Positions 31,727 to 64,000 of a stretch of DNA of 64,000 nucleotides are shown piece by piece. Under the pieces are notes generated by a model. The model was not told where the DNA came from and did no database searches. It worked only from the letters and a program-made list of their open reading frames with translations. Position numbers and translations under genes: made by a program. This stretch comes from Tubiluchus corallicola. Lineage: Eukaryota; Priapulida; Priapulimorpha; Priapulimorphida; Tubiluchidae. The stretch lies in assembly GCA_030141605.1 (NCBI GenBank), contig JAQGDQ010000520.1, positions 92,130-156,129 on the forward strand, given 5' to 3'. The number at the start of each line of letters is the position of its first letter. Within the stretch, counting starts at the first letter, position 1.

Positions 31727-31790
<64 letters not shown>

Positions 31791-38000: not shown

Positions 38001-41000
38001 AGTCATGGAGGAAGTGCTACTTACATACCCATGGAAGCAGGCTATCACAAGGTAATTTTTAATAATTATTAATACATTTTTTTCTTAAAAAGATGCTGGA
38101 TGAAGTATTGATACTTTAGCGTAATAGCAAGAAAATGTGTTTGTGATAATAGGACCCAGAATGGCACTGAGAACCAAGTTCTACTGACCTAATTTTTTTC
38201 GTTTACGGGAAAATAAGGAATTTCTAATATGTACCTTTCTAATATTTTTTAACCATTAAATGCCTTAGAAATGATATTTTAAAACTGTGATAATATTACT
38301 TTAATCCATACCTCGCGCATCCATTAGCCTTGTTTAGAGCGATTTTTGTGTTGGAAAATGAGTGTTTGTGTTTTCGTAACGGTTTGCTGAAAAGAGAAGT
38401 GATAACAAATATATGCAGTGCACAATGATGTAGTTACACTTTTATTATACTGTTATTAAGTAGGTGTATAAAATATAAGCAGTGCACAATGATGTAGTTA
38501 CACTTTTATTATACTTTTATTAAGTAAGTGTACTATTATCAACATGTTCTGCTTGTTCTTTGCAGATTATTGTTTACTGCGATGATCAGATCATCAGTGA
38601 TTGCCCAGTTGACGTTAGAGTCCTTGCCGATGTGAACAAAGTCACTTGTATGGGTGCGGACAAGTGTGCTGTTGGAGCAACTGCCGAATTTGTGGTAAAA
38701 ATTAAAATTGGATGAATGTTTAAGTTTGGAATAACGTCAATTTTTGTGCTTTTAACAAAGCACATAATTTTAATCTGTGTTATAAGAATAGAGAAATAGT
38801 GAATGAAATAATATCGTTTTGTGACAAAAAACTAAAGTAAACTAAACTAAACCAATATCCTGTTGCCCCTGGGTTCATCGACTTCACGAACTAGGACCAG
38901 ACAACCATTGCTGCCTTAGTGTGGTCTACAAAACCCTTAAAGTTACAGGATCAGTCATATAAAAAAAACACAAACACATAAGATAAATTGATATGGGGGT
39001 GGACAGTATAGTGTGTAAATGAATAATTTTTATGTAAATGTAGTTTTTCACAAAATAGCACAACTAACTTACCTTGCTAGAAGATTGTCGAGTCCTGGGC
39101 ATATTATTTATAGGTTCATGAAAATGGTGCCGGTCAGGGCGAAGTGACCGTCGAAGCTCAATCACCGCTTGGATTTTTAATTCCTTGCCAAGTTACACCA
39201 CGTGGTCACAATACTTGGATTGCAAATTTTTCTCCTACCGAACCAGGTATAATTTAATTATTTCTAATCTTCATTTCAAAATTGCTATTAATGACAGTGG
39301 AATTCACAATTATTAAATTGTAATTAATTTAACCAAGTATAATATACGTGTTAATTATTTGTTTGTTATATTTATTGCAAGTATGTCATTTAATGGTAGG
39401 ACATCACAATTATTGTTTTGATTTTTTGCAATCAAACTGCAATGAAAGGAAGAAAATTGAACTCGGGGCCTTTGGATTACAAGTCATATTGCATGACTGC
39501 TAAGGAACTATCCCCCTTGTGACCAAAGCAGCTGTGATAGCTACTCGTGTATTTAGGCCATCTATGGTCTAATTTACTTACAAAAATTGAAATGTTGGAT
39601 TGATTCATAAGCTATTAACTGTGATTGAATTAAGGTCTGCTTTGATCACTAAGTGTGTGTATTGTTTGGCAGCATTATACTGTGTGATACAAAGATCTTG
39701 GTTGTAATTCAGGTTCACTTCTGGTTCTTTCATGAGGTTCTTTCAGTCATGTCTAGTTAAAAGACTTGTTAGTAATTAACCACCATTAGTAATGTTGAAT
39801 CATTAATAATCATTTAAATAATTTATGCCATAAATAAATAAAAAAATTTAAGTAGTTAGAAATTACTCTAGCGCGAGTATAGTATCACTTGGAAAATGTA
39901 GGATTGATTGATGAGATACTAAGTATTAATTAAGACCTACCATAATCGAAATGTTCCTTGTTCTGACTTTTTAGAATTTCCTTCTTTAGAACAAAATTTG
40001 ATGTGAAAAATTTAATAATTGTGTGTTTATTCTATTATTGCGCAATCATTTATACGGATAACAGTTAATCTTCTTTGAATGCGTGCAAAACAATAAAATT
40101 AAAGCGAGCACTTGTAGGCTTGCAAATATTTTTATCAATAAGAGGTGGAATAAATAAGTGAATATGGATAACCCGTCTCGTGGTAATGGTTTTACGTTTT
40201 TAGGTGAATGGAAGATTGCTGTGAAGTTCGATGGTCAAGAAGTTCGTGGAAGTCCTTTTCCATGTGATGCTTTTGATGCTTCCGGTGTTGTAATCAGTGG
40301 ACTTACAAGTAAGAATGTTTTTATTATTGTTTGGCATAAATTTTGTTCTTGATGTATCAGCCTGGTAATAAATTGCTCAGTTATCGTGAAGGTCTTTCTG
40401 GTTACTTTTTCGGGCAAAGTATTGCATTGTTTGCTGAAGAAAATTGATTGCAGATGCAAATTTTAGGTGGCATAGCTGGCACTCCAATGACTTTGGTTGC
40501 TGACACCTCATCGGCTGGTAAAGGAGAAATATCCTGCCAGGTATCTTACCAAGGTCGCAATATACCGGTACGGATTGAAACTAGGGGACCACACCACTAT
40601 GGACTTGTTTTTACTCCGCAAGGTGGAGGCCGGCACAAAGTCACAGTCTTTTATAATGGAAAAGAAATCATTGGTAAGAACAGCTACATTCATTATATAT
40701 TAAGACAAATTAAAAAGAAATGTTTTTGCTAACCAGTATTCATTAGCATCTAGTGACTGTTCTGTCAACTCAGATCAAGTCAATCGCGAGTACGTTCATT
40801 ATTTTTATCAGTAAAAAAGTACTTGTAGTTCATTTTTGATTTGTCTTAATAATCTTTTGGTATAATGTTCAAGTACTTGGATGTGCAAGTCTTTAATGAA
40901 ATTTGTGAAGAAACAATGTATCTAAATTGTTGGTTAGTGTATTCGTGAACACCATCCTATCTGCGTTCTGCATCTGACAGAGAGTATAGTTGTAAAAAAA

Positions 41001-44000
41001 TCCTGTATTTATTAATAATACAATTAATTATTATATGCATAAATTTATTTTATAATCGGTGATGACTTTCTGTTCCAGGTTCTCCATATTACATCGAGGC
41101 AACAGACACTTCAACTGCGAAGGTATCAGGAGATGGCTTGAAAATGGCTGCTGTTGGTCGTGTATCTACATTCTTAGTTGACACACCACATATTAATAAA
41201 AATGATTTAGCTGTTACTGTAGCAGGTGCAATATATTTTTTAAATAATCCCCTTTTTCATACTTTATTGCTGTATTTACATGTCTTGTTAAATTTTTATA
41301 AACAGTATAGTGAGTTGAAAAATGATTTGTAATGTTGGTTGTTGTTATTACATGAATTTTTTTGTGATTCGATGGTCCAAAACTTTTGCTATATCATTTA
41401 AATGCACGGCAATTGCTCTTCAGTAAAGCGTATTGCAGCTCGCGTCAGATCAGTTGCCAGTTTCTGCTTCATATCGAGGTCTACATCATTTTTTATGCAG
41501 TATGAATGTCTTCCTTAAAATATTTAAAAGGTTTTAGATTTTATCAGATATTTTCGTTTCCTTCAGATCCTTTTGGAAGGCAGTTACCTGTGAAGTTGCT
41601 TGACAGAGGTGGTGGTACTTATGAAGCGGAATATACAGCCCGTGAGACAGGTACTTCCTACTTTGATTGTATAATTACTAATGAATATGAAAATGTTTTA
41701 TTTTAAATCATATCTGCTTATTATCTAATTAGTGGGCAAGAGAAACCTAGATAAATTTTCGGTTTGTCTACACAAATTAACATACAACAGGTTAATTTAT
41801 GCAGAGCTTGTAAAATTTTTGTTTATATTGTATTTGAACGATTATAACAGTATATTCATTTCGTGTATAATTGTAGGTGAACACACTGTAGAGGTGAAGT
41901 TGCACAATCGCAATGTAACAAACAGTCCGTGGAGGTGCCAGGCATACGATGCTAGCAAGATTGTTGTTTCTAACATTCCAACTCACACTAAGGAAAAATC
42001 TGTTACATTCAACAGTAAGTGTATAACAATAATCATAATACCAGTAAATGAAAACTATTGCCATTTCACTACCGCCTTGAACTGTGTGAACTGCAAAAGT
42101 GGTTTGTATCTTCCACCTGATAAATAGTTAAAAAGAAAGACAAATTTTCGTGTTTTATAAACCAATGAGGTTGTTGTTTAGCATATATTTGCTGCAAATC
42201 TGATATTACTTGTTTCAGTCTATGCTGTATTTCATTGTTGTTGGACTGTTTATATCACGGAATTGTATTATATCAGGAACTACATAGGCTCATGAGGTTA
42301 TGCGTTTATGCAATTAAACCAAGCTTAGATCGACTTGCGACACAATCCAACTAACCTCAACTGACACGCTCAGGTTGACTACGACTGATTTCCAGCAACT
42401 GCCTGCAACTAGCAAAATACGAGTTCCGGCGAGTTGCAACACTGCTCAAGTCGACTACGACTGAGCACATAAGCAAATGAAAAAAATCTCTAACCAGATC
42501 ATGTGATCAAACCACAATCATTAGCTTGAAAATAATATAGTGATCTCCTGAGACTTGACATGGTCATAATCATAAAAAAGACAAAATGCCTTTTAAATTT
42601 CAAAAACTTTTTTTCCAGAAGCTTTCATCCTTCATAGACTTCATCAGCTGTAGGGCAGAGATACATTAATAAAAATCATAAAAATTACAGATAAAACTAC
42701 ATGTAAAGTACATTCAAATAAGGGTTACAAAATTCATTATGAAGCTGTATAATAAAACCTAAAGTAGAAGAAACTTTGCAATTACTATTCAAGGAAAAAC
42801 AAAATCAAAATGAAACTGCTGACAAATGCACCTGAAATCTGTGTTTTTGAGATTTAAAGGGCATTTTGTCTTTATGATTAAATTCACAATCATCATGAAA
42901 TAATGCTCAGGTCAAAAGTGGGTGGATACCGTTTGCCGCGAGTCAAACCTAAGCAAGTCGCTAGAACTGAGTTGCGTTGTGTTGCTTCGTAAGCTTGTTT
43001 ATGTTGACTGGATATACTCGGAATTAGTGGCTCCTGTTGCAGCTAATTGCCTAATCTTCTTCAGTTGCATTGCATGGCAAGGACGATCTAAACCTGCTCA
43101 CAATCTAGTGCCAGTTTTCAATAAATTTTAGTTAATGAAATTATATTACTAATGTTCATTGAATATTGGCATTTGGTCAGTACTTGCATTTAAAATTTTC
43201 CTCTAGTTGATGCATCTAGGGCTGGTTCAGGCAGCTTGGAAATCATGGTCAATGATGGTATGGAGGAATGCTTGGTGCAGAATGTCGGAAATCAGAAGTT
43301 TCTTGCTACATTTGAAACAAAACCTGCAAAAACGTACACAATTGACATGAAATTTAATCATGATGTGGTATCAGGTATGATTGTTATATCCGCATTGTGC
43401 GCGTTGTAGTGTACTGAGACTTGAGTCTTTGATGAATATTTAAATAGTTTAACTTTTCAACAATTTTGGAATTGGTGTGATAATAAAGAAAGTGACTAGT
43501 ATGTGTTTCCAGAAATTGTTAATTCAGATTTTGTGCACAAAAAAAATTTATATTGTATGCGTAACAATAAGCTTCACAACTAATAGATAATCTTTTGTGC
43601 AGCTATTTATTTAATAATTACGTTACATCATTATTTAATTAAATCATCATGGCAGTGTGAAATTGTCAAACTGATAACTTAAAGAAATCTAGATCTAATA
43701 TCTCTGAAAGTTCATCTTGGCCACTATGTATTTGAATGAAATTTTGTTCATCTAATTCAAGATGTTTAACCAAATTACAGGCAGTCCATGGAAAGTGAAT
43801 ACAATGGACCATAACAGAGTGAGAGTGGAAGACTTTGAACAGAGAGTGTACGGCGTAAATGAACCAGCTACATTTAAAGTGAACACTGCTGATGCAGGCG
43901 AAGGAGATTTAACGGCAAACTTGAAAGGTCTGTCCCTGGAAAGTAATGACACAGGAGTAATGCTAGAAGTAGTATTCTAGGGTGCCATACGTACACTTCT

Positions 44001-47000
44001 AAATAAATTTAACATTTGATTATTGTTAATGCGTAAAAAAGCTAATGGTAAGTTCTTATGTTTTAGCTCCCTCTGGCGTCAGTAGGCCATGTCATGTGTA
44101 CGAGACCAAGCCTGGACAACACAACGTAGAATTCACTGCTGTTGAACCAGGTAAAACAATACTGATAGATTTTGATAATGCCTTATTAATGTGTAACTGT
44201 AACTATATAAAGTAGAAAACTGAGTTTTATGTATCTTTTTGTAGCAGACGCACTGAATCACTTTATGAATTCTCCATTTGCATTTTTTCTACGATTTCTC
44301 GTGTTCAAAAATATGCAGCTTACAGACCTCTATAATTTAATTGGTTGTATAAACAGGTATGCATTCTTTGGATGTACTGTTTGGCGGTCATCACATTCCA
44401 GGATCTCCATATAGTCTGAAAGCATACGACCCTTCCGAGATCCATGTTTCTGGACTCCAGCATGGTGGAATTGGTGGCACGGTAAATACTCCAAAAGTTT
44501 TCACTGGTACGTTGCCTCTATATGTCAAACAGATAATTTAATTTAATTAAATTACTTCATATAACGTACTGTTTCCCTTAATTTTGCAACTTTGAAAGCT
44601 ATATAATAAATCTCAGTTTGGTGAGGATCTGTTCATCTTAGGTGCATCCGTTATGCAACATAGTACCACTCATAATTTGATGCCATGTTCCTTGATCTGC
44701 TGCCACATGCTAAGTATTCATGTTGTTTAAGTCAAGTGCAATATTTAATGTTTTTCTTCAGTACATCCAAATATGTGGCCAGCTGTCCTTCTCTTGATTT
44801 CTTCCCAGGTATTAGTGCTTGATGTAATGCTGTAGTAAGTTGAGAATCCTGTAGGGATCTAATGACATGTCCAACCCATCTAAACCGCCGCTACTGTGTG
44901 ACCTCGCTCCATTCCTTCTTTGTTAAATCATATAAATCCTGATTTGAGAGTTTCTTTGGCCAATTTATACCCAACATTTTTCTGTACAGACGTCTTTAGA
45001 AAGCATGCATTCTTCTAGGTAGCTTTGGTTCCTCTGGATCTGTTGCAGTATTATGGATGTGCAGTTGTTTCAGTATTTACAGCAGATATTATTATTTATT
45101 CCATTGTGACTCATCAACATTTTTCTCTCCTCATACTATTCTTGTATGCCCTTGCTTAATACATGGTCTGCTCTTGCTTGTCTTTGAGTGAACCAAACTT
45201 TTTCATTGACGAATACTTGTGAATCCAGTAAGTCCTCACTTAGTGACGCAAATACCTTTCATGAAAAATGCAACGTTAATCGAAACATTATTAAACGAAA
45301 CCAAGATGTCTATACAAAGTAATGTAAAAGAATTGAGATACTTTCCAGAGGCAAAATTCAATGCTAGTTAAGTCATGTAAATTAAATGTGTTATTATTCA
45401 TACTTTTAATAATTAATTTCTTTTTGCTTTCTTGAAAATACCTACCTTTCTTACCAATATCTAACTAGTATTAACGCTGAAGCCTAGCTATGCAGTTAGC
45501 AGTTGAACACTGCACCGCAAAAGCCAAGTTCTCTGAGGCCTTGAGACAATTTGTTCTATGCTATTGTACCAACAGGCCGCAGGCAAAATTCCTTGCATAA
45601 AGTTTGCTCTCGGTTGCCCACAAATAGATCTCGCTTTATACAAGTGGCTAGCAGTTAGTTGGGAAGCGAAAATATAAATAATAATTGTACTGCTTTATGT
45701 TACTGGTGTGTTTTTAGAACAGAATAAAGCAGTATGTACTATTTTAATGCTTGAAATTGGGTAAAAATTTTGTTGATAAAATAAAAAATGGCTTAAGCAA
45801 AGTAGAAAATTGGAGTTAAAATGAAACATGCGTTGTTATGTGAGAAAAAGGTGTTGGATGTCTGCTAAACAGGGAGTCGTTGAGCGAGGTCTTACTGTAA
45901 TTACTGTAATTCTTCTCTTTTCGTTGTAGTTGATGCCTCACAAGCTGGACATGGCAACTTGGAGATCATGGTCAATAATGGCTACGTTGAGTGCCAAGCT
46001 CAATCCATTGGACATCAGAAATTTCGGGCATCATTTGTGCCTAAACAAGCGAAACAACACACTGTTGATATAAAGTTTAATGGCAAGCTTGTACACGGTA
46101 TGTACTGCTCTCAACTATTTTTTCTATTTTAAAAATATCAGCTTTGCTAAATAGCTGTCATTGCTGTTACATTAGTTGGATTTGGTAATAATAAAACTAA
46201 GCATCTCTTCAATAACATTCTGCAGGTAGTCCTTGGAGTTTCGATGTAATAGATCCATCTGTGATTACTGTATCTGGGGATGGTATTCGTAGTGTTATGC
46301 TGAACAAACCAACCTGGTTTGACGTAAATCACGGCACCCTGAGCCCTGATAACCTTGAAGTCAAGATGACAAGTACGTTTCTAATAATATTATTGCTGTA
46401 ATTATATAATTTTTATGAAAGTTCATTTACCTTAATCATAATAATAAAAAGTAATATGATATATGTGTTTAATAAATATAATTAGAAACAACAGAGTTAA
46501 TTGGTATAAAGCAATATTACTTAAGGCATTTTAAATGAATTTGAGAAATAAACATTCAGGGTAGCAAACTGAGTATCCCTGAATATGTTATAGACAAAGT
46601 TTTGTTCATTTTATTTGATATATTGTTTTTCTGTATAGCTCCTTCAGGATTGGAAAAGAGTCTTCCATTTAGAGAAGTCAAGCACGGTGTAAGTAGAGTC
46701 GACTACACAATGACAGAACCTGGTACGTTTGTTTTTTAATTTTAATCTGTTAATCAATTTCGCTCTCTGCATTCATTGGTTGCAACTTGTTTTTTTAATA
46801 TTTTCTAGGTAAAAAAGTTTTGTTGAAAATGTTTTTTTATTTAAAATCGATTGATTACTAGGTTATCACACATTGGAAGTAAGCTATGCTGGTGAACATG
46901 CAATGGGCAGCCCATTTAGCATTCGTCCATTTAATCCAGCGGACATTAAAGTCACCGACATGCCCAGAAGTTGTAACTTGGGGGATGCTGTCACTTTTAC

Positions 47001-53000: not shown

Positions 53001-56000
53001 AGGTGTTGCATTTTGTAATAATTAAAGCTGTAATAAGGTTTCAATAGGAAAACTGGTAAATCATTTTGCACTTTAAGTATAATTGTAGTTCCATAAAATT
53101 AACACTTGATATAATTCTTAAAAAAATTTTCAATTTTAGCTCCAAGTGGTGAAAGGTTACCTATACGATTAGTAGAAACACATAAAGGAGTAGTTCAAGC
53201 TGAATATTATTGCAGGAAGCCAGGTATGCACTAAATGCTTCTTGAAATTTGTGAAACAGGGCAAAAATCTATTTTATATTGGTTGATGTAGTTTGCTAGT
53301 ACGTTTTAGTAAACTGTTTTGATGTTTTGTTTGTTTTCCGAGCTATAAGATAACCGAACATAATAATTAATTTAAACTACTTATAAACAATCCATATGTT
53401 ATTTGGCTCATGTGAATTTGTGTTCACCTCCGTTGTCATCGTTATTGTCATAAAACGCCCATTATGGTTCTTGTAGCTTCCAAAATAAATCTGCCTCAAG
53501 ACAGTTAAATACAAAACGCACCACTTCCACTTAAATTTGTATTCGTAAGGCTTACCCCAGTGTCTTCTAATGCTGATAGAAGAATTTATCTGAGAACTAG
53601 TAGAATTTATCTGAGAACTAGTAAAAGTGTCTTACCCATAATTATTCTGACGTACAGTATACATACATCTCCAACAACAGAAATAACTGATATGGTAAGG
53701 CAGATGAAATTGCGCGGGTGAATTTACTAACATTCAGCCTTTCATTTGCTGACCAGGTTCTGCATTTTTTAACTTTATAGCTGAACACTCATACTGTGAC
53801 TACCCCCTATTTCCATTTGCCCAAGTTGCACCATTACTGTTCAAGTTTAAAATAAGTACTACACAAAAGTGATTACTAGTTATAATAAACATATGAATAA
53901 TTTGGCATGTAACAGTGCCCATTTAGCTAAGGTTTAGTTTGAACTTAGTTTTGTTGATAACAGAGATTACAATATGGCTTAAACAGCCAGTTTTATGACT
54001 GATAGACGTTCTTGCCAATGGAACGTAACACTTAGAAGACTGCAAGCAATAAACGAACAGTAGAAGCATTACAGTACGACTTCTATCAGTATAGATACAC
54101 AGTAGTAGTAGTAGTAATTTATTGGCAAAGATTATCTTGTTACACGGAGTGAGACATATTGATAGTAAAATAACAACATCCAACTTATATCCAGAAAAAA
54201 CAAGTCGTTTAACATTACCATAGAACAAAAACAAAACTTAGCATAGCATACATACGTAGCATAATGTTGAGATGACATTAATATTACTATATAAACAATG
54301 TAAACAAATACACTGCATGTTTATACTGTTGCATTGCCAAAACTTTTTATGTAGTTAAGATGTGTTTAGATGTTTGGTGTTTTAATTTAGTAAACAATTT
54401 TTTTATTTTTAGGCCTGTACACCATTGATCTGAGATATAGTGGGCAGCCAATAAGTGATAGCCCATACACTGTTAAGGTACAAGATCCTGGATCTATCCT
54501 AGTGGACATGCCTCCGGGGGAAGCATTTGTTGGAAACCCTGTCACTTTTACTGGTATATTTGAACATGGCTAAATTGGTTTTGTTTTTTAAAAAATATTG
54601 TGCATTAAAATTGAAATATTGGCTGTTTGTAAAATTGTGTTTCGTCAGTCACTAGCTGTTACCTTTCAGTTGATGCGTCAAAGACTGGTTCAGGAAACTT
54701 GGAAATTATGGTCAATGACGGTCAAGTGTTCTGTGACGTTCAAGACATTGGAGGACAGCGTTTCCGTGCTTCCTTTGTTCCCGAGGAAGCCATACCACAC
54801 AGCGTCAAAATGAAATTTGACAATGAACCTTTAAGAGGTATGAATAAATTTTTATGAATATGAAAAAGCCTGTTAACTCTTTGAAATAAGATACTACCAG
54901 AATACAGTAGACACTCCAGCAAAGTACTAATCATTCAGTTGTGAATTGTTAACTATTAAGATGAATATCAATTTTTAGACTGGTTTCACAAAGCAGATAT
55001 ATGCTATGCTTGTTGTTTGGTACACAGAAGAACAGAATTGTATGTTTGCTTGAGTAATTGTTATCACATTTTAACTATCTTTTTATTTTTGCAGAAGTTT
55101 ATTTAGCTAAAAATGATAAAGGATGCATAATAAACTGAATTATTATTGTACAACTTGTGCAAAGAAAAGACAAATCGTGAACTTCCAGACTTAATGTAGG
55201 ATGTCTAATTTTTAGGAAGTCCATGGCATTTCACAGTGATTGATCCGTCTCGTATACGGGCATATGGAGAAGGACTACAAAAAGCTAAACTGAACCAAGC
55301 TTCATTATTTGAAATTGATACATGTGGAGCTGGAGATAAACATTTGACGACAGAGCTCTTGGGTAAAAATTTGTTTTCTTCATAGCAGTTTGATAAAGCA
55401 ATGATATAGTTTAAATGATATAAGCAGACAGCTGAAATGAAAACAAGATATTGAGTCTGAGAATGCTGTGCAAAGTTACTGCTGTTCTTGATTGCTGGCA
55501 GTGCTACTTTGTAACTTCTCACTGCTTGATTGGCTTCCATGTTTTTTATACTGTTGTAGTGAATATTAAACTATCAGTTTCGACAGAAGTGACTCAACAA
55601 ACTCCACCAAATGTCTTATACTGGAATTATACCCTAGTACAACTTTTTTCAGAAATGTCAGACGGTGTAGGCAACTCATTATTATGTTTGTGATTTTCTC
55701 TAATAATTTTGCCTCTCTCGTTCTGTTTTGTCCGACTGCAGTTTTGAGCCCACATTCTCCGACACGGAAAACACAAGTAACTGACAGAGCTATTTTTGAT
55801 GGTCTGATAATATCTCCGAGGAATAATAGAGGAAAGATAATGGACCATGTATTGTTAATTCATGACAATGATTTAACACTTAGGTTTTAGGCGATTCATG
55901 AAGATAATTCATGATGTGCACACTTAGTAATATATGTCATAATTTCTTTGTAACATTCGAAATAAATTGTAATCTTACCATTTGCTTTACTTTGATTTTC

Positions 56001-59000
56001 AGCACCAAATGGAGAGAGAACTCCTATCAGACTCACCGAAACTCACAATAAAGGTGTTTACAAAGCTGAATATTTCTGTAGGCAGCCAGGTAAGTTCCCA
56101 CTATCAACCAATAATAATGCTAATTTAAGCCATTTTGTAGTTGTCTTTTTGTAAGTACAGTGGCCGCCGCTTATTGTGGACACGTCGGGCCAGCAGTGTA
56201 TGTCCATATTAAGCGGCTGTCCATATTAAGCGAAGTGACCCATGAAGACCCTTCCCCTTCATTAAAAAAGGCAAAAAACTGTCTGTATCAACTCGTCTCC
56301 TGTTTTATTGAAAAAAAGAAGTCAGACGAGTTTGTTTGGCAGGAAACTTTTCTCTCAACCTTGAACGGAAGGAAGTTATCTCAGTTTCGAAGCTCTCAAG
56401 GCCACGGCAAACGGCGAACTGACTGATGCAATGACTCACACAGGCAGCAGAGCGGGAAGCTCTTTTCAATCACGCGCGCAGGCCGTGGTTGGCACGGCTG
56501 GTCACGTGCCAAGAATGTTCGCTGTCCATATTAAGCGGCGGTTGTCCATATTAACCGGCGGATTTTATTAGGGGAAAATTCCGTCCCTCGCGAGTTGTCC
56601 ACAATAACCGGCTGTCCACAATAACCGTGTCCATAATAAGCGGCGGCCACTGTAATTGTGATGTTTTGTATTTAGGGTCGTATGTTTTGGATCTGAGGTA
56701 TGCTGGAAAGCCTATTAGTAGCAGCCCTTACACTGTAAAAGCATTTGATGCAAATCTCATCTCCGTGGACATGCCTCCATCACCAGCACTCATAGGAATA
56801 CCAGTCAATTTTACAGGTACACAAAATGACACTTAGTTTAATATACTAGTTTATTGTAATTTTTATGAATATTATGAGAAAGACTTTTCTTTCTCAGCTG
56901 AATGAGATCATGTTCCAAGATTCACATCTTGGATGACTCACGTACTTATTTTTACCTTAAGAATGTAATTAAGTATATAAAATGATACTGTAAATGAGAA
57001 TATAAAGTGGTATTCTTGCGATACATTTTTGCCACAATATTAAATACAACGAAAAACTATAAAATGCTTTTGTGAGATTTAATATGTAATATACTTCGAT
57101 TTATTATACCGTCAAAAATTAAGATTCTTATATTGTTTATTATCAGAGCTTGGTTCAAGCATTAGACTTTTTTTGTATGTGGCAACTCAAGTGATCTTGA
57201 TAACAGTAACAAACAAGTATTTTTTATCGTGTCTTGTGACTTAGCATCTTTTTGTTATTTATTTTATTTTAAATTTATTTTATACACAAAAGTGTGCATT
57301 ATACTTTTACTTGTTGATACTTGTTGATTGTCTGTACTTACTGATTTTGATTTTTTAACTTTGGTTGACTTCTTGCAGTGATTTTCGTTGCTTCCTTGTT
57401 TTTTGAATAGTCAGTAAGAATTTATTAATTGTTTTATTGTACAGTTGATGCCTCGGAAGCCGGATCTGGCAATCTTGAAATCATGGTTAATGGTGGTCAT
57501 GTTCACTGTGGTGTACAAAAGGTTGGAAACCAGAGGTTCAAAGGTAGCTTTGTACCGGAGAACACAGCTCCTCATACAGTCGAGATGAGATTCAATGAGT
57601 TGCCTGTTCAAGGTCTGTCTTAATATTGTATCTCATTAGATTATATCATTGGTGTGTCAGTAAAGCCAAGTTTAGGTCAACCAGCAGTGCGACCCAACCC
57701 ACCTCAACTGACAGAAAGCAGTCGTAGGCACATACTCATGTCGACTGCGACAGATTTCCAGCAACTAGGAAGATACAAGTTCCTGCGAGTTGCAACACTG
57801 CTCAGGTTGACGATGCATGAACGTACTCGAATAACAAAGTCTCTGGCCAGACTATGTGACCAGACCACAATCATGCTCAGGTTAAAACTGCATGGCTGGT
57901 ACGTGCTGTGAGTAGGACATGAGCAATTCACTGGAACAGAGTTGCGTTGTAAGCTTGCTTATGTCAACTAGATATACTTGGAACTAGTGTCGTACTGGTG
58001 CGCCAGTTGCTGAGTCTTCAGTTCCTCTCAGTTGTGTTGCTTCGCAAGGTCGACCTAAACCTGCCTTTAAAGTCTAAGCAGCATTCCCTTATTGACAAAA
58101 ATTTACTCATTGATACTCAACCAAAAAGCCAATTGCAGTCTTTTATGCTCTTAAAGTATTTTACCCGTACAAAGGACAAAATTTAAATAGTTATCTGTGT
58201 TTCTAATATAGTTTAATGTTATCTTGTTTGACGAAAAATTCAAATTACTATAATAGTTTTACTCAAAGGACAAACTCAGAAGTTTATGAACTTTGATGGG
58301 GTTGATGTTGTTGTAGCTAAACATCATGTGTATGATAAAAATAAAAAAGAGTTTGGCACTTTTATATGAAAATCTTTGTATTGGTTTTAGTCATGCGTTT
58401 AGAGTTGATGTTAAACAACTTTATATTTCATACTTGTTTTTTCTTTGTTTTTTAGTTCTCATGAAAATTCGTGCTATCCTTTTGATCATTTAATTTAACT
58501 GACTCTAAGCATTAGTGAAATATTTTGCAGGTAGCCCTTGGAGATACGATGTGTTTGATGTAGGTAGAATAAAAGCTCATGGCGACGGTTTGAAATCTGC
58601 TACTCTCAACAAACCGACGTCATTTGAAATTGATACAGGTGGCCAACCAACTGAACATCTTCAAGTAAAAGTTAAAGGTGTGTTTTATCTGCCTCAGTAT
58701 GTATCTTTGTCTTTCTGTAGAGATGCAAAAGTTGCACGAGGAAGTTAAACCATTGTAAAGTTTTTAAGATTAAGATTTATGTTAAGATTTTTGTTAGTAA
58801 CCCTTATTCATTTTGATTGCTTTCACAGTAGAAGGAACAAATAAAAACAAAGCACCACAACAGCTGAGTACAGTTGCACAATTTAGTAACAAAATCAACT
58901 GTATTGGTGACTGGCTTTGTTTTCGCACCTACTTCCATTAAGAATTTAATAAGCAACAAGAACATATGACTTCACGTATAACCTCATAATCATAATGATC

Positions 59001-62000
59001 TGCATATTTGTGGTTTTCTCCTTTTAGCACCAGATGGCAAGGTACTTCCATCAAGAATTACTGAGACACAGCAGGGCCTTAGCAAAGCTGAGTACACAAT
59101 GACTGAAATGGGTTAGTAGTTAAAAAGACTTGTATTTCTGATTTGAATTGACTGCCCAAAAGACCAAAGACCAACAATAATCGGCACCAGGGGTTTATAA
59201 ACTTTATACCCTGTTTACTGCAAGATCATTATTATCCTTTTGTTTTCCGCATATAGAAGTCTGTATTTTGTTTAGCAAATATTAATGGTATCTACTAACA
59301 TACTTACATACCATATGCAACTCTTTCTAGCTTGTATTTTATAACTTTCCAAAATAGTCTTTTTGTTTGATGCACTTGGGAAGTTGATGTATATACGAAT
59401 ATTTTTTGAAAACTGTGACGGTTAAAAATATTCTTGTTATTTGACTATTGCAAAGATTTTTGTGTATTTACAAAACATGTTTAACTGAATGGTGTGTACC
59501 CTCTACTAACTAATAGATAGATAGATAGATATTTTATTTCTGAAAATCACATTTCCAACACAAAAATTACAAATTACACCCGATGGTTTTATCAGCGGGC
59601 AGAGCTCAGGTAATGATTTCCAGATCGTACTAACAATTTTACTCAACATAGCTGCACAGGTATACATATAGGTATACAAATTTAGTTGTAAGCTCCATAA
59701 AGCGAAAAATAAAACTATTTACTAAGCATTTGTACACATGTATTAAACAAATATTTTACCTATATGATGATCTCCGTGATGCGGTTATATATCCGCTAAC
59801 AAAGCTATACTATTTAATTCACAAATCTTGCATACAGTCGTAAATGAAACTACCTATTGACGTTAATTCTCCATCAAATAAATTTGCAATATTACTATAA
59901 TTTAATGCGTACAGTGATCTATAAAGTGCATTTTCATGGCACTCGCACAAAAAATGCTCTTCTGTCTGAATTTCTCCACAAAGACACAGCCTGCGCTCAC
60001 GAGGTACATTTGCCCAACGACCTGTTTCTATAGCTAGATTGTGTGATGAGACCCTTATTCTTGTGATGAGTATACGTTTGTGCTCAGGTAACTCTGTCTT
60101 CCCATACATTGGATACACGGTCAAATTGGGATTTATTTCCAAATAAATCTTGCATTTTGTACGATTAGAAACTCGGACATGAGTCTTTCGTCTCTCTACA
60201 TCTGTCTGTACATGATCCGTTGTAGACATAACACTGTCTAAATATTTGTATCCCTTTGTTCGCGTATCTTTACATAAATTCCATACCAGCATAAACGGGT
60301 CATCCGTCATAGCGTGACGCTGGCTTACCAACTTCGAGACGAACTTCTTTTGCACGTTTTTTACCCATTTTTTTTGTTTCATATTTTAGCTCTGCCTTTT
60401 TACCTATTTGATTCACTGAACTGATATTTTCGTCACCACCTTGTTGATTTCACTTTTTTAAATCGTCTTACGGTGCATTTTTCTATTAGGTAAACACAGC
60501 ATTGATGTTAGATATGCAGGGCATAGTATAGCTGGTAGCCCATATACTGTGAAAGCTTCAGACGCTCGCCGTATTAAAGTCTATGAATTGCAGGACTCTA
60601 ACCAAGGTTACACTGGAACACCTATCAGCTTTGTAGGTTAGTTATTTTTACATGCTCTGATTAGCAAATGGTTGCATATATCGTGCAGGCCTAAAGCTAC
60701 TTTTTGATAGGATGCATTGTGTGCAAGTTCTGATACATTGCCTTTTCCCATAGTTGATGCAAACAGTGCCGGATCCGGTAACTTAGAAATCATGGTTAAC
60801 AAAGGCAAAGTAGCCGTTGATGTTCAAAATTTGGGACAGCAAAAATTCCGAGCCAGCTTCACGCCGAAAAAAGCAGACACTCACATACTGGAATTGAAGT
60901 TCAATGGTCAGCATGTACCAGGTATGAATGCGACTTGCTTACGTACAAACACGCATGCAGGCACGTGCGCGCATACACACGCTCACACACACACTGAGTA
61001 CTTTCGTGGGAAGGAATAATTAATTTCCACTTACTGCAATAAAGTTACCATTGGCAAAAGGGTTATGTTTTCATTGCTTTTTTTTCTGTTAGTCAGCAGG
61101 ATTATGCACAAAACTTTGGGTGGGAAGGGTTGGTCATAGGCAAGGGTGAATAGAAGATTTTTATACTAATCTGACTCTACCAGAGCCTACAAGAAACTTC
61201 CTAGTTCTTTTTATGCGATTTTTCACTGAAAAACCATACGCCGCAAACCAATTAATGAGACACGTGCCCATAACTCTTGCTTATAAATTGCCTTTCAGTG
61301 TGTAATGTATTGACCAGATTAGTTAATTATTATGTTATAAGCATGGGGCAAAATAGTAAACAAATACTATGTAATATGTAAAATGTTTGTGCATTATTAA
61401 TTGTAATCTTGTTTAGCCTTTCTTTTAAATTAACTTGAGTATTATCTACTACAGTGGCCGCCGCTTATTATGGACACGGTTATTGTGGACAGCCGGTTAT
61501 TGTGGACAACTCGCGAGGGACGGAATTTTCCCCTAATAAAATCCGCCGGTTAATATGGACAACCGCCGCTTAATATGGACAGCGAACATTCTTGGCACGT
61601 GACCAGCCGTGCCAACCACGGCCTGCGCGCGTGATTGAAAAGAGCTTCCCGCTCTGCTGCCTGTGTGAGTCATTGCATCAGTCAGTTCGCCGTTTGCCGT
61701 GGCCTTGAGAGCTTCGAAACTGTGATAACTTCCTTCCGTTCAAGCTTGAGAGAAAAGTTTCCTGCCAAACAAACTCGTCTGACTTCTTTTTTTCAATAAA
61801 ACAGGAGACGAGTTGATACAGACAGTTTTTTGCCTTTTTTAATGAAGGGGAAGGGTCTTCATGGGTCACTTCGCTTAATATGGACAGCCGCTTAATATGG
61901 ACATACACTGCTGGCCTGAGGTGTCCACAATAAGCGGCGGCCACTGTATTAACAATCAACCTATTACCATTAATAAAGGAGCAAAAATAGTAGATGAACA

Positions 62001-63505
62001 CCATGTAAAATGTTTATGCAGCCCCGGGGGAAGGTTTGTGCTTTACTGGTGTCACACTAATGTTTGTATGACATTATTTTATATTGTCATTTGTTTGTTT
62101 ACGTGGATTTTGTGGATCAATCCTTTTGTATTTTGCGGCTTATTAACTTTGATTTAATAAAATGATAGAAATTGTGATTCTAAAAGCTTAATTGTAATCT
62201 AGGGTTTCCCCGTTCTTTCAACATTGTCGATCCCGCTTCCTCTGCCCGACTGTATGGAGGCGATTTACATGGTGGGAATATCCATACACCGCTTGCTGTG
62301 CAAATGAATACAGCTGGTGCTGGTGTACATGTTGTACCGGAGGCAAATCTTATAGGTACGATTGCCATTGATTGTTTATATCATGATACGTATGCATACA
62401 TTAAAAATAATATATCTGTTGATAGAATTATCCATATTTGGCAAATAAATGTAATCACAGTAGCTTTTTTGTTGAGAGACTTTAATATAGGTTCTTCTGA
62501 ACCTGTTAACCAATCCTTTTAACTTTCTATTTATCTTCTCTTCAGATGTATGTATGTTGCATATCAGATTTGTTTGTTAATAAAATACTGTTTAAACTAA
62601 ATGTGACTTCATCAAAATGAATTTACTGCTGACCGGTTTCGAACAAAACTATTCGGTATCAAGGCATCTAAAGGAAAGAAATTTACCAGAATTTAGAAAT
62701 AACATCGACATACAATTCAGTAGTTAATAACCAGATGTATGATATATATTATATAGATAATATTACAGACTACATCTTTATTTGTATGAAACTATTTAAC
62801 ACTCCACAAACAAACAAACCATTATGTTAGTAGTAACAGCATTGTCAATTTTAGGGAGCTGCCATTTTGTTACTAAATTCCACAAGCCACAATGCACTGC
62901 TGATAGTGTTTTTTATATTAAGAATAAACTAGCAGATGTCAAATGATTATTGTTTTAGGACCCAGTGGGAAAAGGACACCATGCCGCACTGTGGAAGTTG
63001 ATAGAGACATGTATAAAATTGAATACATATTGACTGAGAAAGGTACAGCATCACTGTTTTAAGTAATTTACTTCAATATTTTAGTAAATGTGGCATCCCT
63101 TTTCAACATTTGTATCAGGAGTGCTAGAAGAAGTTATTAAACAATTCGTTTCCAAAATGTCTTCATTGAATTTTGCAAGTTACACCAGCTAGACTTCACG
63201 ACATATGCCACTAGTGAAAAATGTAAACTGGTCAGCTTATCTGTATAACTTCATTAGCTTTTTGACACACACTTGCTCTTAAAAGTAACTAAATGTAAAT
63301 ATGAGATTTTTACCCTTCATATTAACACATATTAACACATTTTGCAACTTGTTATTTTCAGGCACAAGCAATTTGGAAGTAAAACTCAGTGGTCATCATA
63401 TCGTGGGAAGCCCATTCCCAGTTCGCGCATACGATCCAGATTCAGTTAGGATGTTGAATCTTCCAACAGGACCAACTAAAGTTAATGAGCCTATCACATT
63501 TATGG
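30078..63505 (+). CDS. FLN-like (jbug-type): Filamin with three CH domains (jitterbug-type), 44 exons, 3' end outside window
   Basis: An actin cross-linking scaffold protein by family. Exons: 30078-30447, 34830-35025, 35486-35765, 36685-36987, 37896-38051, 38566-38694, 39114-39246, 40204-40308, then nine four-exon cassettes listed separately. All junctions are GT..AG and in phase; 2,202 residues are in the window. Order: short N-terminus, CH1 (about 36-149), CH2 (about 157-255), CH3 (about 262-365), then filamin Ig-like repeats, 20 complete plus the start of a 21st. Vertebrate filamins have two CH domains and 24 repeats; insect jitterbug has three CH domains, so this is the closer type. The start ATG (30078) follows a splice acceptor (ttcttgcag, ending 30070), so a 5'-UTR exon upstream is likely; an in-frame ATG at 30012 would lie in the intron. 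The stop codon is not in the window. Confidence 0.9.
31723..31800. repeat. (TAC)n microsatellite
   Basis: About 70 bases of TAC triplets with an internal run of CGACTA variants, in filamin intron 1. It could be the tail of an older LINE insertion. Confidence 0.9.
31945..32100 (+). pseudogene. Decayed LINE ORF2 tail fragment
   Basis: The frame LPLPREDRICTCNNSMQDEQ-HVI matches the Cys/His-containing tail of the two larger LINE remnants in this window (PRERRLCLCGEIQTEEH at 60 kb, CNICEDEVQDEQH at 32.9 kb). Upstream bases look like the same family with frameshifts. Confidence 0.55.
32360..33079 (+). pseudogene. LINE ORF2 C-terminal remnant, frameshifted
   Basis: A first segment in one frame reads TYAAETWLTSGFGALEALLG, then PNELCYIEADMPLLKK and breaks at an A-run (32505-32511). 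A second frame, 32549-33079 (176 codons), contains FVLSAHHLKVETGRW and CNICEDEVQDEQHVVTRC, a Cys-Cys-His-Cys pattern as in the zinc-binding tail that follows the RT of several LINE clades. The RT catalytic core is missing. It lies in filamin intron 1, sense orientation. Non-functional as it stands. Confidence 0.7.
34180..34560. repeat. Diverged interspersed repeat
   Basis: Contains three loose copies of a module with (A)GTCAC-GAAACTTGCAGG-(A)TAGACA (about 34195, 34350 and 34490). This wording is shared with the 24-25 kb region. Confidence 0.45.
35486..36987 (+). CDS. Filamin exons 3-4: rest of CH2 and a third CH domain
   Basis: Exon 3 (35486-35765) completes CH2 (SALADYCRPGLFPNWRHLNR; MVISPEDFSSDYLDELSSMT) and starts a further CH domain (GYQATLNFAREKILDVPVNN). 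Exon 4 (36685-36987, phase 0) continues TDWNDGRALCSLVTALGGQV and ends that CH domain at LGIMAYVAKFQ, then begins the first Ig-like repeat (VSISGDGLKIAHVGKT). CH3 repeats the NFTxDWNDG(V/R)AL core seen in CH2, so it is a genuine third copy and not an assembly artefact within one exon. Confidence 0.9.
37243..37467. mobile_element. 225-bp foldback MITE
   Basis: Nearly palindromic: the left arm TAAATCTCAAAAAATTCTTT pairs with right-arm AAAGAATTTTTTGAGATTTA. Outer ends GTAAAAGAAATTAAAATG and CATTTTAACTTCTTTTAC and inner GCTTCATCAGCTGA / TCAGCTGATGAGG also pair. It lies in the intron between filamin exons 4 and 5. Confidence 0.8.
37896..40308 (+). CDS. Filamin exons 5-8: Ig-like repeats 1-2
   Basis: Exons 37896-38051 (AHFYLEFKEKNVKENQIRAQ), 38566-38694, 39114-39246 (ENGAGQGEVTVEAQSP) and 40204-40308 (GEWKIAVKFDGQEVRGSPFP). 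They encode filamin repeats 1 and 2 and the first residues of repeat 3. Unlike the cassettes downstream, the first three junctions here are phase 0 and exon lengths are 156, 129, 133 and 105 nt. This part therefore predates or escaped the cassette duplication. From the junction after exon 7 onward, every intron is phase 1. Confidence 0.87.
38411..38532. repeat. 62-bp tandem duplication
   Basis: GCAGTGCACAATGATGTAGT and the following TACACTTTTATTATACT..TTATTAAGTA are repeated once, 62 bases apart, 34 bases before filamin exon 6. Confidence 0.9.
39451..39520 (-). mobile_element. tRNA-like (Thr-type anticodon loop) SINE head
   Basis: The minus strand reads CCTTAGCAGTCATGCAATAT, then GACTTGTAATCCAAAGGCC and GAGTTCAATTTTC. 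This order resembles the A box, CTTGTAAT anticodon loop and B box of a tRNA-Thr-like sequence. Stems are too decayed for a working tRNA gene. Confidence 0.45.
40467..42014 (+). CDS. Filamin cassette 1 (exons 9-12), repeats 3-5
   Basis: Exons 40467-40673 (207 nt), 41079-41225 (147), 41567-41650 (84) and 41877-42014 (138), residues about 558-749. The acceptor of exon 9 is tttag at 40466; using the earlier cag at 40453 would break the frame. Exon 9 is longer than its counterparts because it includes GIAGTPMTL, which in later cassettes lies on the preceding exon. It then reads VADTSSAGKGEISCQVSYQG. Exon 12 carries GEHTVEVKLHNRNVTNSPWR. This is the least typical cassette. Confidence 0.87.
42316..43105. 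mobile_element. Dispersed MITE split by a second insertion
   Basis: Segments 42316-42521 and 42894-43105 together match the element at 57663-58075 (shared ATTTCCAGCAACT, CGAGTTGCAACACTGCTCA, TTGCGTTGT..AAGCTTG). Ends are imperfect inverted repeats (AAGCTTAGATCGACTTGCGA against reverse-complemented GTTTAGATCGTCCTTGCCAT). The middle is a younger insertion. Confidence 0.65.
42522..42884. mobile_element. Inserted MITE nested inside the dispersed repeat
   Basis: About 363 bases absent from the related copy at 57.8 kb. CACAATCAT occurs on both sides (42513-42521 and 42885-42893), a possible target-site duplication. Near both ends are inverted repeats ATCATAAAAAAGACAAAATG and CATTTTGTCTTTATGAT. It shares GCTTTCATCCTT..GACTTCATCAGCTG with the foldback element at 37.3 kb. 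Confidence 0.6.
43207..44506 (+). CDS. Filamin cassette 2 (exons 13-16), repeats 5-7
   Basis: Exons 43207-43374 (168 nt; IDASRAGSGSLEIMVNDG), 43781-43927 (147; GSPWKVNTMDHNRV), 44067-44150 (84; APSGVSRPCHVYETKPG) and 44357-44506 (150; GMHSLDVLFGGHHIPGSPYS). Residues about 750-932. This is the first cassette with the intron placed just before the (I/V)DAS motif, the position kept in all later cassettes. Confidence 0.88.
44760..45010 (-). pseudogene. LINE ORF2 fragment, antisense, with stop
   Basis: The minus strand reads MLGINWPKKLSNQDLYDLTK, then KEWSEVTQ, an in-frame stop (44893-44891), then RRFRWVGHVIRSLQ and GKKSREGQLATYLD. The RRxRWxGHVxR motif is a hallmark of the region after the RT in RTE/CR1-like LINEs. 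A dead fragment in the filamin intron 44507-45929. Confidence 0.7.
45226..45897. mobile_element. Degraded 672-bp pogo-like MITE
   Basis: The left end CAGTAAGTCCTCACTTAGTG pairs with the reverse-complemented right end CAGTAAGACCTCGCTCAACG. TA follows on the right; the left flank has lost it. No coding frame. It ends 32 bases before filamin exon 17. Confidence 0.6.
45930..47002 (+). CDS. Filamin cassette 3 (exons 17-20), repeats 7-9
   Basis: Exons 45930-46097 (168 nt; VDASQAGHGNLEIMVNNG), 46226-46372 (147; GSPWSFDVIDPSVITVSGDG), 46639-46722 (84; TPSGLEKSLPFREVKHG) and 46862-47002 (141; GYHTLEVSYAGEHAMGSPFS). Residues about 933-1112. The preceding intron (44507-45929) holds an antisense LINE fragment and a degraded 672-bp pogo-like element. 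Confidence 0.88.
47391..48425 (+). CDS. Filamin cassette 4 (exons 21-24), repeats 9-11
   Basis: Exons 47391-47558 (168 nt; VDASKAGSGNLEIMVNGGQV), 47680-47832 (153; GSPWEISVEEKDLSGIKAFG), 47938-48021 (84; APSGRIDEADVVETGPSR) and 48282-48425 (144; GTHYLDVKYGGIHINGSPFM). Residues about 1113-1295. The most compact cassette: its introns are all 105-260 bp and free of recognisable insertions. Confidence 0.88.
48589..50546 (+). CDS. Filamin cassette 5 (exons 25-28), repeats 11-13
   Basis: Exons 48589-48756 (168 nt; VDASQAGSGNLEIMVNRGQV), 49560-49706 (147; RAYGEGLQKASLTKM), 50099-50185 (87; SPTGERQPIRLTETPRKG) and 50406-50546 (141; GLYTIDLRYAGQSISNSPYT). Residues about 1296-1476. Very close to cassettes 6 and 7 in wording and exon length. 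Confidence 0.88.
49711..49998. repeat. Intronic tandem duplication, about 145-bp unit
   Basis: Copy 1 (49711-49858) and copy 2 (49859-49998) share TCATTTTAACTTRCATTRTA, TAGAGAAGYGAATG, GGACTT and TATTCATTYTAAATAYATTT. They fill most of the intron 49707-50098. Confidence 0.85.
50881..54553 (+). CDS. Filamin cassette 6 (exons 29-32), repeats 13-15
   Basis: Exons 50881-51048 (168 nt; VDASQAGSGNLEIMVNGGQV), 52270-52416 (147; RAYGEGLQKAALGKP), 53140-53223 (84; APSGERLPIRLVETHKG) and 54413-54553 (141; GLYTIDLRYSGQPISDSPYT). Residues about 1477-1656. Introns are large here (1.2, 0.7 and 1.2 kb): the first holds a degraded 720-bp pogo-like element, the third a short LINE 3' end. Confidence 0.88.
51141..51860. 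mobile_element. Degraded 720-bp pogo-like element
   Basis: Starts after TA with CAGTAATTGCCGCTTAATAA; the right end reverse-complements to TAGTAGGTACCACTTCATGA, an imperfect match. Subterminal TTAATAARACC motifs recur at both ends. No transposase frame. In the intron 51049-52269. Confidence 0.5.
54101..54240 (-). pseudogene. Probable LINE 3' UTR end with (TAC)n tail
   Basis: The minus strand runs through TTGCCAATAAATTACTACTA, ending in a TAC-triplet tail at 54101-54117: a LINE-like 3' trailer plus microsatellite. No coding segment recognised. Confidence 0.35.
54670..56816 (+). CDS. Filamin cassette 7 (exons 33-36), repeats 15-17
   Basis: Exons 54670-54837 (168 nt; VDASKTGSGNLEIMVNDGQV), 55216-55362 (147; RAYGEGLQKAKLNQA), 56003-56089 (87; APNGERTPIRLTETHNKG) and 56676-56816 (141; GSYVLDLRYAGKPISSSPYT). 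Residues about 1657-1837. The last intron (56090-56675) is almost entirely a 495-bp MITE, ending only 23 bases before the exon-36 acceptor junction. Confidence 0.88.
56158..56652 (+). mobile_element. 495-bp MITE (pogo/Tc1-mariner type), copy A
   Basis: TA target duplication (56156-56157, 56653-56654). Left end CAGTGGCCGCCGCTTATTGT; the right end reverse-complements to CAGTGGCCGCCGCTTATTAT. Subterminal motifs TCCATATTAAGCGG / TCCACAATAACCGG recur several times, as expected for transposase-binding sites. An 88-codon frame runs through the terminal repeat and is not a transposase. It nearly fills the intron between filamin exons 35 and 36. Confidence 0.9.
57445..60636 (+). CDS. Filamin cassette 8 (exons 37-40), repeats 17-19
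   Basis: Exons 57445-57612 (168 nt; VDASEAGSGNLEIMVNGGHV), 58531-58677 (147; GSPWRYDVFDVGRIKAHGDG), 59028-59111 (84; APDGKVLPSRITETQQG) and 60490-60636 (147; GKHSIDVRYAGHSIAGSPYT). Residues about 1838-2019. The first intron holds a dispersed MITE (57663-58075); the third holds an antisense LINE 3' end with a 187-codon open frame. Confidence 0.88.
57663..58075. mobile_element. Dispersed MITE, uninterrupted copy
   Basis: Matches the split copy at 42.3-43.1 kb. Termini are imperfect inverted repeats: AAGTTTAGGTCAACC on the left, and GGTTTAGGTCGACCTTGCGA when the right end is reverse-complemented. No convincing coding frame. Confidence 0.6.
59513..60385 (-). pseudogene. LINE ORF2 C-terminal remnant with (TATC)n tail
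   Basis: The minus-strand frame 60382-59819 (187 codons) has DDPFMLVWNLCKDTRTKG, RVSSHNLAIETGRWANVPRE and CLCGEIQTEEHFLCEC, the same Cys/His tail type as the 32-33 kb remnant. About 300 bases of trailer follow, ending in ATC-TATC repeats at 59513-59530, i.e. an intact LINE 3' end. The 5' side, including the RT core, is missing (5' truncation). Inserted antisense in the filamin intron 59112-60489. Confidence 0.75.
60754..63505 (+). CDS. Filamin cassette 9 (exons 41-44), repeats 19-21 start
   Basis: Exons 60754-60921 (168 nt; VDANSAGSGNLEIMVNKGKV), 62203-62355 (153; GFPRSFNIVDPASSARLYGG), 62959-63042 (84; GPSGKRTPCRTVEVDRD) and 63362-63505 (144; GTSNLEVKLSGHHIVGSPFP). Residues about 2020-2202. 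Exon 44 ends in phase 1 with donor ATGG|gtaatt, so at least one more exon must lie to the right; 63506-64000 is intron with nothing recognised. The cassette's first intron contains the second 495-bp MITE. Confidence 0.87.
60945..60998. repeat. CA-rich low-complexity tract
   Basis: An ACACACG/CACACAC-rich stretch just after filamin exon 41; it creates a spurious His/Thr-rich extension if the donor at 60922 is ignored. Confidence 0.7.
61452..61946 (-). mobile_element. 495-bp MITE (pogo/Tc1-mariner type), copy B, inverted
   Basis: Same length and almost the same sequence as the copy at 56.2 kb but in opposite orientation. TA duplications at 61450-61451 and 61947-61948. By eye only a handful of differences, so both are recent copies of one family. 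It lies in the intron between filamin exons 41 and 42. Confidence 0.9.
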
Positions 63506-64000
63506 GTAATTAAATGCCTTATGATTACTTAGTAAACAAGTGACACAAAATCTAAATTTTGCATTTAGACATTGGCATGAGTTGTTAACTGGGTATGTGG
63601 CAAAGACCTCATATAGAAAAAACTCAATATCAGACATGCTCTTGCAAGATATTGCGCAGCAAACACTTTGTCTGTTAGGAGTATGCTAGATTTCGTGATT
63701 TGGTTACAAAGAAATTCGGTACATCTGAATATTAACAACATACATACCCTTTGCATGTTTTGTTTGTTGATCTATTCTCAGATGTAATTATAAGCTATGC
63801 CAGAGAAAGAGAAAGAACGCTAGGTAAAAGACTGGTTTACAACAAACGTTTTTCTTATTATTTTTTATTATCAAAGGCAGATTTTCATATTGAATGTAAT
63901 TCTGATTATTGTAGAATTCTAATTCCAAGTATAACGGTGTTGCATTTTATAGAACTATGTCACTTGCTTAAAGTATGTTACGAGGTCCACTAAACATTTT

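Follow-up and report, generated by a model that had tools for sequence, protein, structure and literature searches.

A probable jitterbug/FLN-2-type filamin gene of Tubiluchus corallicola with 17 two-Ig exon cassettes

Introduction

How does a giant repeat protein grow, domain by domain or in larger blocks, and where does such a block begin and end? Growth by the copying of one block is a known route for proteins of this kind, and two domains are said to be the commonest unit of repeat expansion in general (PMC1553488). The locus described here, from the priapulid Tubiluchus corallicola, shows this route with unusual clarity and in more copies than were first seen. The stretch of DNA analysed (the window; 64,000 nucleotides, G000:C1292:92130-156129) reaches to the end of contig C1292. 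An earlier note, made from these letters, had read it as a filamin built from nine tandem four-exon cassettes of two Ig-like repeats each. Our reading, to which we assign a probability of about 0.8, is that the gene encodes a filamin of the jitterbug/FLN-2 type with three CH domains and 40 Ig repeats, including 17 A-B cassettes derived from old duplications of whole blocks with their introns in place. The gene illustrates clearly how a giant repeat protein grows, the unit comprising two domains and four exons and its edge probably lying inside a domain. A second filamin of the same genome, which is without such blocks, provides a control.

Gene model

All 36 exons between 40467 and 63505 have the lengths given in the earlier note, with AG before, GT after, an open frame and phase 1 on both sides, and the sums agree with its cassettes of 540-576 nt. 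The scan for AG, open frame and GT was restricted to those same lengths and to phase 1, and it returned many chance candidates too, from which the 36 were selected by order and filamin homology; it is therefore a check, not an independent prediction. The splice scores quoted below come from a matrix trained on the very same exons. Spliced together, cassettes 1-9 contain no stop and give 18 Pfam Filamin stretches (E 6e-273).

Eight upstream exons (30078-40308), coding for three CH domains plus two Ig repeats, join the array in frame, which agrees with the previous placement of the start of the array at exon 9. Pfam finds three CH stretches within the first 557 aa (E 1.6e-48) and two Filamin stretches in this upstream part, which, with those of the array, bears out the identification as a filamin. 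The claim that all introns are of phase 1 holds for the 36 exons and fails for the gene, since introns near the 5′ end include phases 2 and 0 and cassette 14 carries a phase-2 intron.

The exons of the window are as follows, cassette exons being given in order with their lengths in nucleotides.

30078..30447, + strand: exon n1, begins with ATG, CH1, first exon of the coding model (open frame, donor score 8.5, Pfam CH)
34830..35025, + strand: exon n2, CH1/CH2 (AG/GT, in frame with n1 and n3, Pfam CH)
35486..35765, + strand: exon n3, CH2/CH3 (AG/GT, frame, weak donor of 3.3, Pfam CH)
36685..36987, + strand: exon n4, CH3 and start of Ig N1 (AG/GT, frame, weak donor of 3.7, Pfam CH)
37896..38051, + strand: exon n5, Ig N1 (AG/GT, frame, Pfam Filamin)
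38566..38694, + strand: exon n6, Ig N1/N2 (AG/GT, frame, Pfam Filamin)
39114..39246, + strand: exon n7, Ig N2 (AG/GT, frame, Pfam Filamin)
40204..40308, + strand: exon n8, 105 nt, end of Ig N2 and start of Ig c1A (splice scores, frame, alignment of repeats)
40467..42014, + strand: cassette 1, 40467-40673, 41079-41225, 41567-41650, 41877-42014 (207-147-84-138; AG/GT, phase 1, open frame, Pfam Filamin)
43207..44506, + strand: cassette 2, 43207-43374, 43781-43927, 44067-44150, 44357-44506 (168-147-84-150; exon scan, Pfam Filamin)
45930..47002, + strand: cassette 3, 45930-46097, 46226-46372, 46639-46722, 46862-47002 (168-147-84-141; exon scan, Pfam Filamin)
47391..48425, + strand: cassette 4, 47391-47558, 47680-47832, 47938-48021, 48282-48425 (168-153-84-144; exon scan, Pfam Filamin)
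48589..50546, + strand: cassette 5, 48589-48756, 49560-49706, 50099-50185, 50406-50546 (168-147-87-141; exon scan, Pfam Filamin; weak-looking donor, GTTTTT, after 48756)
50881..54553, + strand: cassette 6, 50881-51048, 52270-52416, 53140-53223, 54413-54553 (168-147-84-141; exon scan, Pfam Filamin)
54670..56816, + strand: cassette 7, 54670-54837, 55216-55362, 56003-56089, 56676-56816 (168-147-87-141; exon scan, Pfam Filamin)
57445..60636, + strand: cassette 8, 57445-57612, 58531-58677, 59028-59111, 60490-60636 (168-147-84-147; exon scan, Pfam Filamin)
60754..63505, + strand: cassette 9, 60754-60921, 62203-62355, 62959-63042, 63362-63505 (168-153-84-144; exon scan, Pfam Filamin)

The window holds 20 of the 40 Ig repeats of the gene model, approximately the first (5′) half of the gene. 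The gene does not end at 63505: it is cut by the end of the contig, and a second contig, C1820, carries it to its stop.

63012..64000, + strand: 989-base overlap with C1820:1-989, identical at 988/989 positions; the gene carries on through the overlap

Exon E4 of cassette 9 falls within this overlap, and the exon that follows on C1820 is a VDAS exon with matching frame and phase. The overlap rules out C1820 as a separate paralogue: the two contigs bear the same gene. With a type A exon as query, 11 of 12 matches fell on C1292 and C1820, the twelfth having an E value of 0.36. C1820 contributes cassettes 10-17, four trailing Ig repeats and, after the last Ig, a stop codon at about C1820:37655. 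The count of nine cassettes is thus correct for the window, and the whole gene has 17, eight more lying on C1820. The complete rod consists of two leading Ig repeats, 17 two-Ig cassettes and four trailing repeats, and the 40 repeats that we cut equal in number the Pfam Filamin stretches summed by model piece (2 + 18 + 5 + 15). The model comprises 81 exon pieces and approximately 4040 aa, both figures leaving aside a Ser/Gln-rich insert in cassette 12, and the spliced pieces show no stop in 2628 aa and none in 1414 aa. In cassette 12, the A repeat is separated from the B repeat by C1820:15021-19349, where Ser/Gln-rich coding-like stretches probably represent a large disordered insert spread over several exons.

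Cassette structure and the unit of duplication

When the 40 repeats are aligned with 22 repeats from the second filamin, those of the array fall into two alternating types. Type A is marked by an intron, alpha, before VDAS in 16/17 cases (it is shifted in c1A) and by another, beta, before the last strand in 17/17, an alignment gap displacing one of these by a column. In type B, gamma lies before the C strand (17/17) and delta before the F strand (12/17). All four are of phase 1. A script count placed the 65 array introns on seven combinations of column and phase, 62 of them on just four.

The four-exon form is not kept in seven of the cassettes: 11, 13, 15, 16 and 17 have three exons, 12 has the insert and 14 has an extra phase-2 intron in its A repeat. 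In addition, c17B has a beta intron. Cassette 1 is irregular: the intron at its start is placed 39 nt upstream of the usual position, so that the exon measures 207 rather than 168 nt and no intron directly precedes VDAS. The five three-exon cassettes are those missing delta, probably through intron loss; delta is present in cassettes 10, 12 and 14, and this alternation within cassettes 10-17 might be the mark of a duplication of cassette pairs. The beta place also occurs outside the array, in F16 and T3, as does the delta place, in N2, T1, T2, F11 and F21, so that both introns may have existed before the array did.

The repeats themselves carry the same period of two. Mean BLOSUM62 scores per column at lags of 2, 4, 6, 8, 10 and 12 repeats were 1.80, 1.70, 1.60, 1.53, 1.47 and 1.38, versus 0.72-0.81 at the odd lags from 1 to 11. 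Pairs of the same type averaged 1.58 and A-B pairs 0.77, a gap reached in none of 2000 label shuffles; 32 of the 34 array repeats find their best match in their own type, the exceptions being c1A and c17A. Moreover, the A and B repeats of one cassette have diverged together (Mantel r 0.566, 0/5000 permutations), and r was 0.494 in a partial test after removing distance along the array. The correlation was 0.598 in cassettes 1-9 (4/5000) and 0.463 in cassettes 9-17 (153/5000), and in cassettes 2-17 it reached 0.596 with the A-B pairing used here versus 0.30 (55/5000) with the alternative pairing. The unit of duplication was the four-exon, two-Ig block. The proposal to this effect in the earlier note is upheld by the contrast of even and odd lags, by the joint divergence of A and B and by the recurrence of one exon pattern per domain block, seen in all 36 window exons and in the four shared intron places.

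Age of the duplications

Among the 16 cassettes compared (all but cassette 12), identity ranges from 15 to 72%, and 115 of the 120 pairs do not exceed 50%. The closest are 5-6 (72%), 5-7 (66%) and 6-7 (65%), and similarity between repeats declines with distance along the array. At fourfold sites, identity over all cassette pairs was 0.317 versus 0.292 expected from composition, and even the closest cassettes matched at 19/54 (5-6), 22/52 (6-7) and 13/50 (5-7) of them. For exons E1 to E4 of cassettes 2-9 the values were 0.333, 0.275, 0.316 and 0.364 versus 0.301, 0.296, 0.335 and 0.301 at random, E4 lying somewhat above its random value. Comparison of equivalent introns of the cassettes by blastn gave no match at E 1e-4. 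With fourfold sites close to random and no match between equivalent introns, the duplications are old and recent duplication is rejected; a recent or variable repeat would consist of copies nearly identical in introns and silent sites, and the maximum here is 72% identity at the amino acid level. The earlier suggestion that cassettes are gained or lost at present, or vary in number between individuals, is not supported, on the same two observations, and present-day variation would not be expected from the sequence.

Each cassette may be ancient and shared one-to-one with the jitterbug/FLN-2 genes of other phyla, the two-repeat duplication having taken place in an early animal and no part of the array being peculiar to this species; we give this somewhat less than an even chance, and it would refine rather than exclude the explanation preferred here. 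It accords with the near-random fourfold sites, the unmatched introns and the low identity (15-50%) of 115 of the 120 pairs, and some insect jitterbug repeats presumably resemble repeats of cassettes 11 and 12. Against it, cassettes 5, 6 and 7 are 65-72% identical, about as similar as repeat 19 of the second filamin is to repeat 19 of human FLNA (59/90 residues; 41/84 for repeat 20), and similarity drops along the array. Both observations fit a later, local duplication that gave rise to these three cassettes at least; they would be the youngest of the array and could have arisen after the major animal groups had parted. Orthologues from related species would date each block and show whether selection set the length of the rod.

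Relationship to other filamins and repeat proteins

The N-terminal CH region followed by 40 Filamin/ABP280 Ig repeats places the protein in the filamin family. FLN-2 of C. elegans and jitterbug of Drosophila possess three CH domains in an unusual actin-binding region (PMC3143143), and the three CH domains found here by Pfam indicate a filamin of that kind; an ordinary filamin would have two, with a 24-repeat layout. The repeats of FLN-2 and jitterbug are interrupted by long stretches of low homology (PMC3143143); the present protein has one Ser/Gln-rich insert. FLN-2A comprises 3747 aa with about 23 repeats (PMC3143143), whereas the present model, its insert left aside, reaches about 4040 aa and has 40 repeats, of which 34 belong to cassettes. 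The passages of PMC3143143 dealing with FLN-2 and jitterbug describe no exon cassettes.

The second filamin (G000:C1711:155721-196870) looks ordinary. Twenty-two repeats were modelled, numbered 3-24 by order and by the human layout, only 19 and 20 being matched to human repeats, and the model has gaps. One open frame contains a long Pro/Ala/Gln/Gly-rich repetitive stretch between repeats 9 and 10 and another after 10. Like human FLNA, FLNB and FLNC, this protein has Ig repeats of about 90 residues and a bias toward phase 1 (20 of the 29 introns placed; eight are of phase 0 and one of phase 2). Its introns are nevertheless scattered over 23 places and form no exon cassette, whereas in the cassette gene 62 of 65 lie on four. 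Thus, phase 1 is common in filamins and the repeated intron pattern is particular to the cassette gene.

The same principle is known from nebulin, in which a four-exon block corresponds to the repeated domain block with exon borders inside domains, although that block holds seven domains (PMC1553488) and the present one two Ig domains. Among filamins, expansion is reported to have occurred by tandem duplications in Trichoplax and mainly by single ones in Hirudo (PMC8275333, citing Light et al. 2012), likewise internal repeat duplications in particular lineages; that account, as far as its relevant sections go, is at the protein level (5-36 repeats per protein in 18 proteins) and describes no exon blocks. 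The titles and opening lines of abstracts among the papers listed for filamin evolution, jitterbug, intron phase and exon blocks describe no filamin exon cassette. Block duplication in repeat proteins, three-CH filamins and lineage-specific filamin expansions were therefore already known, and the present case is an unusually regular and long array. The peptide of one exon gave 159 pattern matches in bacterial/archaeal contigs and 19 in viral contigs, none of which was confirmed.

Ordinary filamins suggest another origin for the alternation, namely that A and B perpetuate the odd/even pairing of rod 2. Multi-domain structures of FLNA 16-17, 18-19 and 19-21 are named in PMC3143143, and the profiles of A and of B both match the FLNA 19-21 chain best. 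However, these profiles (15/17 repeats each) share their three best chains without an odd/even split, F18, F20 and F22 of the second filamin form a group of their own (94/97) apart from A and B, and the intron places differ. Neither the tree nor the searches with A and B profiles revealed a correspondence of A and B to ordinary odd and even repeats, and we consider this origin quite unlikely.

Duplication of single repeats, with the regular introns gained in parallel or spread later, is more improbable still. Hirudo filamin reportedly grew mainly in this manner (PMC8275333), and the sequence tree by itself is weak for the B repeats. That tree (62 rows, 92 columns) is poorly resolved, with 5 of 59 inner branches starred. 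An unstarred branch (support 89/78) splits off 16 of 17 type A repeats, with c17A apart from them and T1 beside them, and in the free tree the B repeats are scattered on weak branches rather than forming one group (6 changes). Constraining all 17 A or all 17 B repeats together was not rejected (p-AU 0.573 and 0.571) and was 3.4 log units better than the free tree. Independent copying of single repeats is contradicted by the even/odd alternation at each lag tested, by A and B intron types that stay unmixed among the 34 array repeats save for the beta intron in c17B, and by the introns of the second filamin, which do not gather on few places. In addition, 32 of 34 repeats best match their own type, and the two exceptions, c1A and c17A, best match c16B and c2B and not the B repeat of their own cassette. 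As far as the data go, growth by single repeats is refuted. Least probable of all is an artefactual join of C1292 and C1820, with the gene ending or continuing otherwise past the window: the overlap does sit at contig ends that the assembler left unjoined, but its 988/989 identity, the frame and phase carried across it and the type A exon matches on both contigs speak against this.

The cassette edge and a proposed mode of growth

Any of the four introns could be the break between blocks. Identity matrices were computed per exon and correlated across each exon junction. In cassettes 2-9 the junctions E1-E2, E2-E3 and E3-E4 gave 0.77, 0.74 and 0.77, versus 0.23 between E4 and the next E1 (800 of 4000 permutations as high); in cassettes 1-16 the corresponding values were 0.50, 0.57 and 0.49, versus 0.27 (73/4000), the last junction still correlating. 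Alpha was the cut with the highest mean correlation in each of the four ranges analysed and in eight of nine leave-one-out runs. The signal hangs on the close group of cassettes 5-7: leaving out cassette 6 brings every rotation down to 0.13 or less, and leaving out cassette 7 makes delta the best cut. An edge at alpha, inside an Ig domain just before VDAS, is thus favoured, not proven. The earlier note had set it there, and this is the best-fitting cut, drawing mainly on cassettes 5-7.

We propose that blocks of two Ig repeats, their introns already in place, were duplicated whole again and again to build the array, most likely through unequal exchange between phase-1 introns, and that the break usually fell at alpha, a point for which the junction data give moderate support. 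Addition of a block would keep the frame because all four introns share one phase, and presumably only multiples of a whole cassette would leave both Ig folds intact. The duplications would have taken place long ago and the copies then diverged, cassettes 5-7 being the latest.

Not all parts of the cassette have diverged equally. The first exon of type A (E1) shows 59% identity in cassettes 2-9, versus 34-40% for the other three exons; in cassettes 10-16 it is no better kept (37%) than E4 (38%). Gene conversion as the cause of its conservation is not supported by the fourfold sites of E1 (0.333 versus 0.301 random), and conservation of the residues while these sites are near random points to selection on a surface. 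E1 of cassettes 2-9 may therefore form a surface that recurs at each second domain.

From its family, the protein would most likely be a long, actin-linked elastic scaffold. Jitterbug is required for the mechanical response of tendon cells, and mutants have seizures (PMC3143143); its products appear to be without dimerization domains like that of mammalian filamin (PMC13225219). One could go further and suppose that alpha served repeatedly as the cut point for the addition of two-domain blocks in the animal's own lineage, for cassettes 2-9 at least. An old filamin of the jitterbug type would thereby have become a 40-repeat rod that presents a selected A face at each second domain, like a ruler or a multi-site clamp, its length set by cassette number; we regard this as doubtful.

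Probable mobile DNA in the introns

Some matches between introns of the array were considered as copies of cassette sequence and rejected, as they look like mobile DNA (opposite orientations, many genome copies, non-equivalent places). The first intron of the gene contains a 189-aa open frame with a Cys-rich end (window 32507-33073), for which FERM_F2, below its cut-off (E 0.0023), was the only match; our impression is that it looks like a retroelement remnant. The introns of cassettes 1 and 8 (window 42369-43097 and 57735-58064) have in common two stretches 70-75% identical; these do not occupy equivalent intron places and probably stem from an older mobile element. The introns of cassettes 7 and 9 harbour, in opposite orientations, an element of 506 bases bounded by terminal inverted repeats some 30 bases long (window 56149-56654, + strand, and 61450-61955, - strand), the two copies being 98.8% alike. 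It has at least 40 full-length or nearly full-length copies in the genome with 98-100% identity (40 of 116 candidates scored), and is a MITE-like element that probably moved recently.
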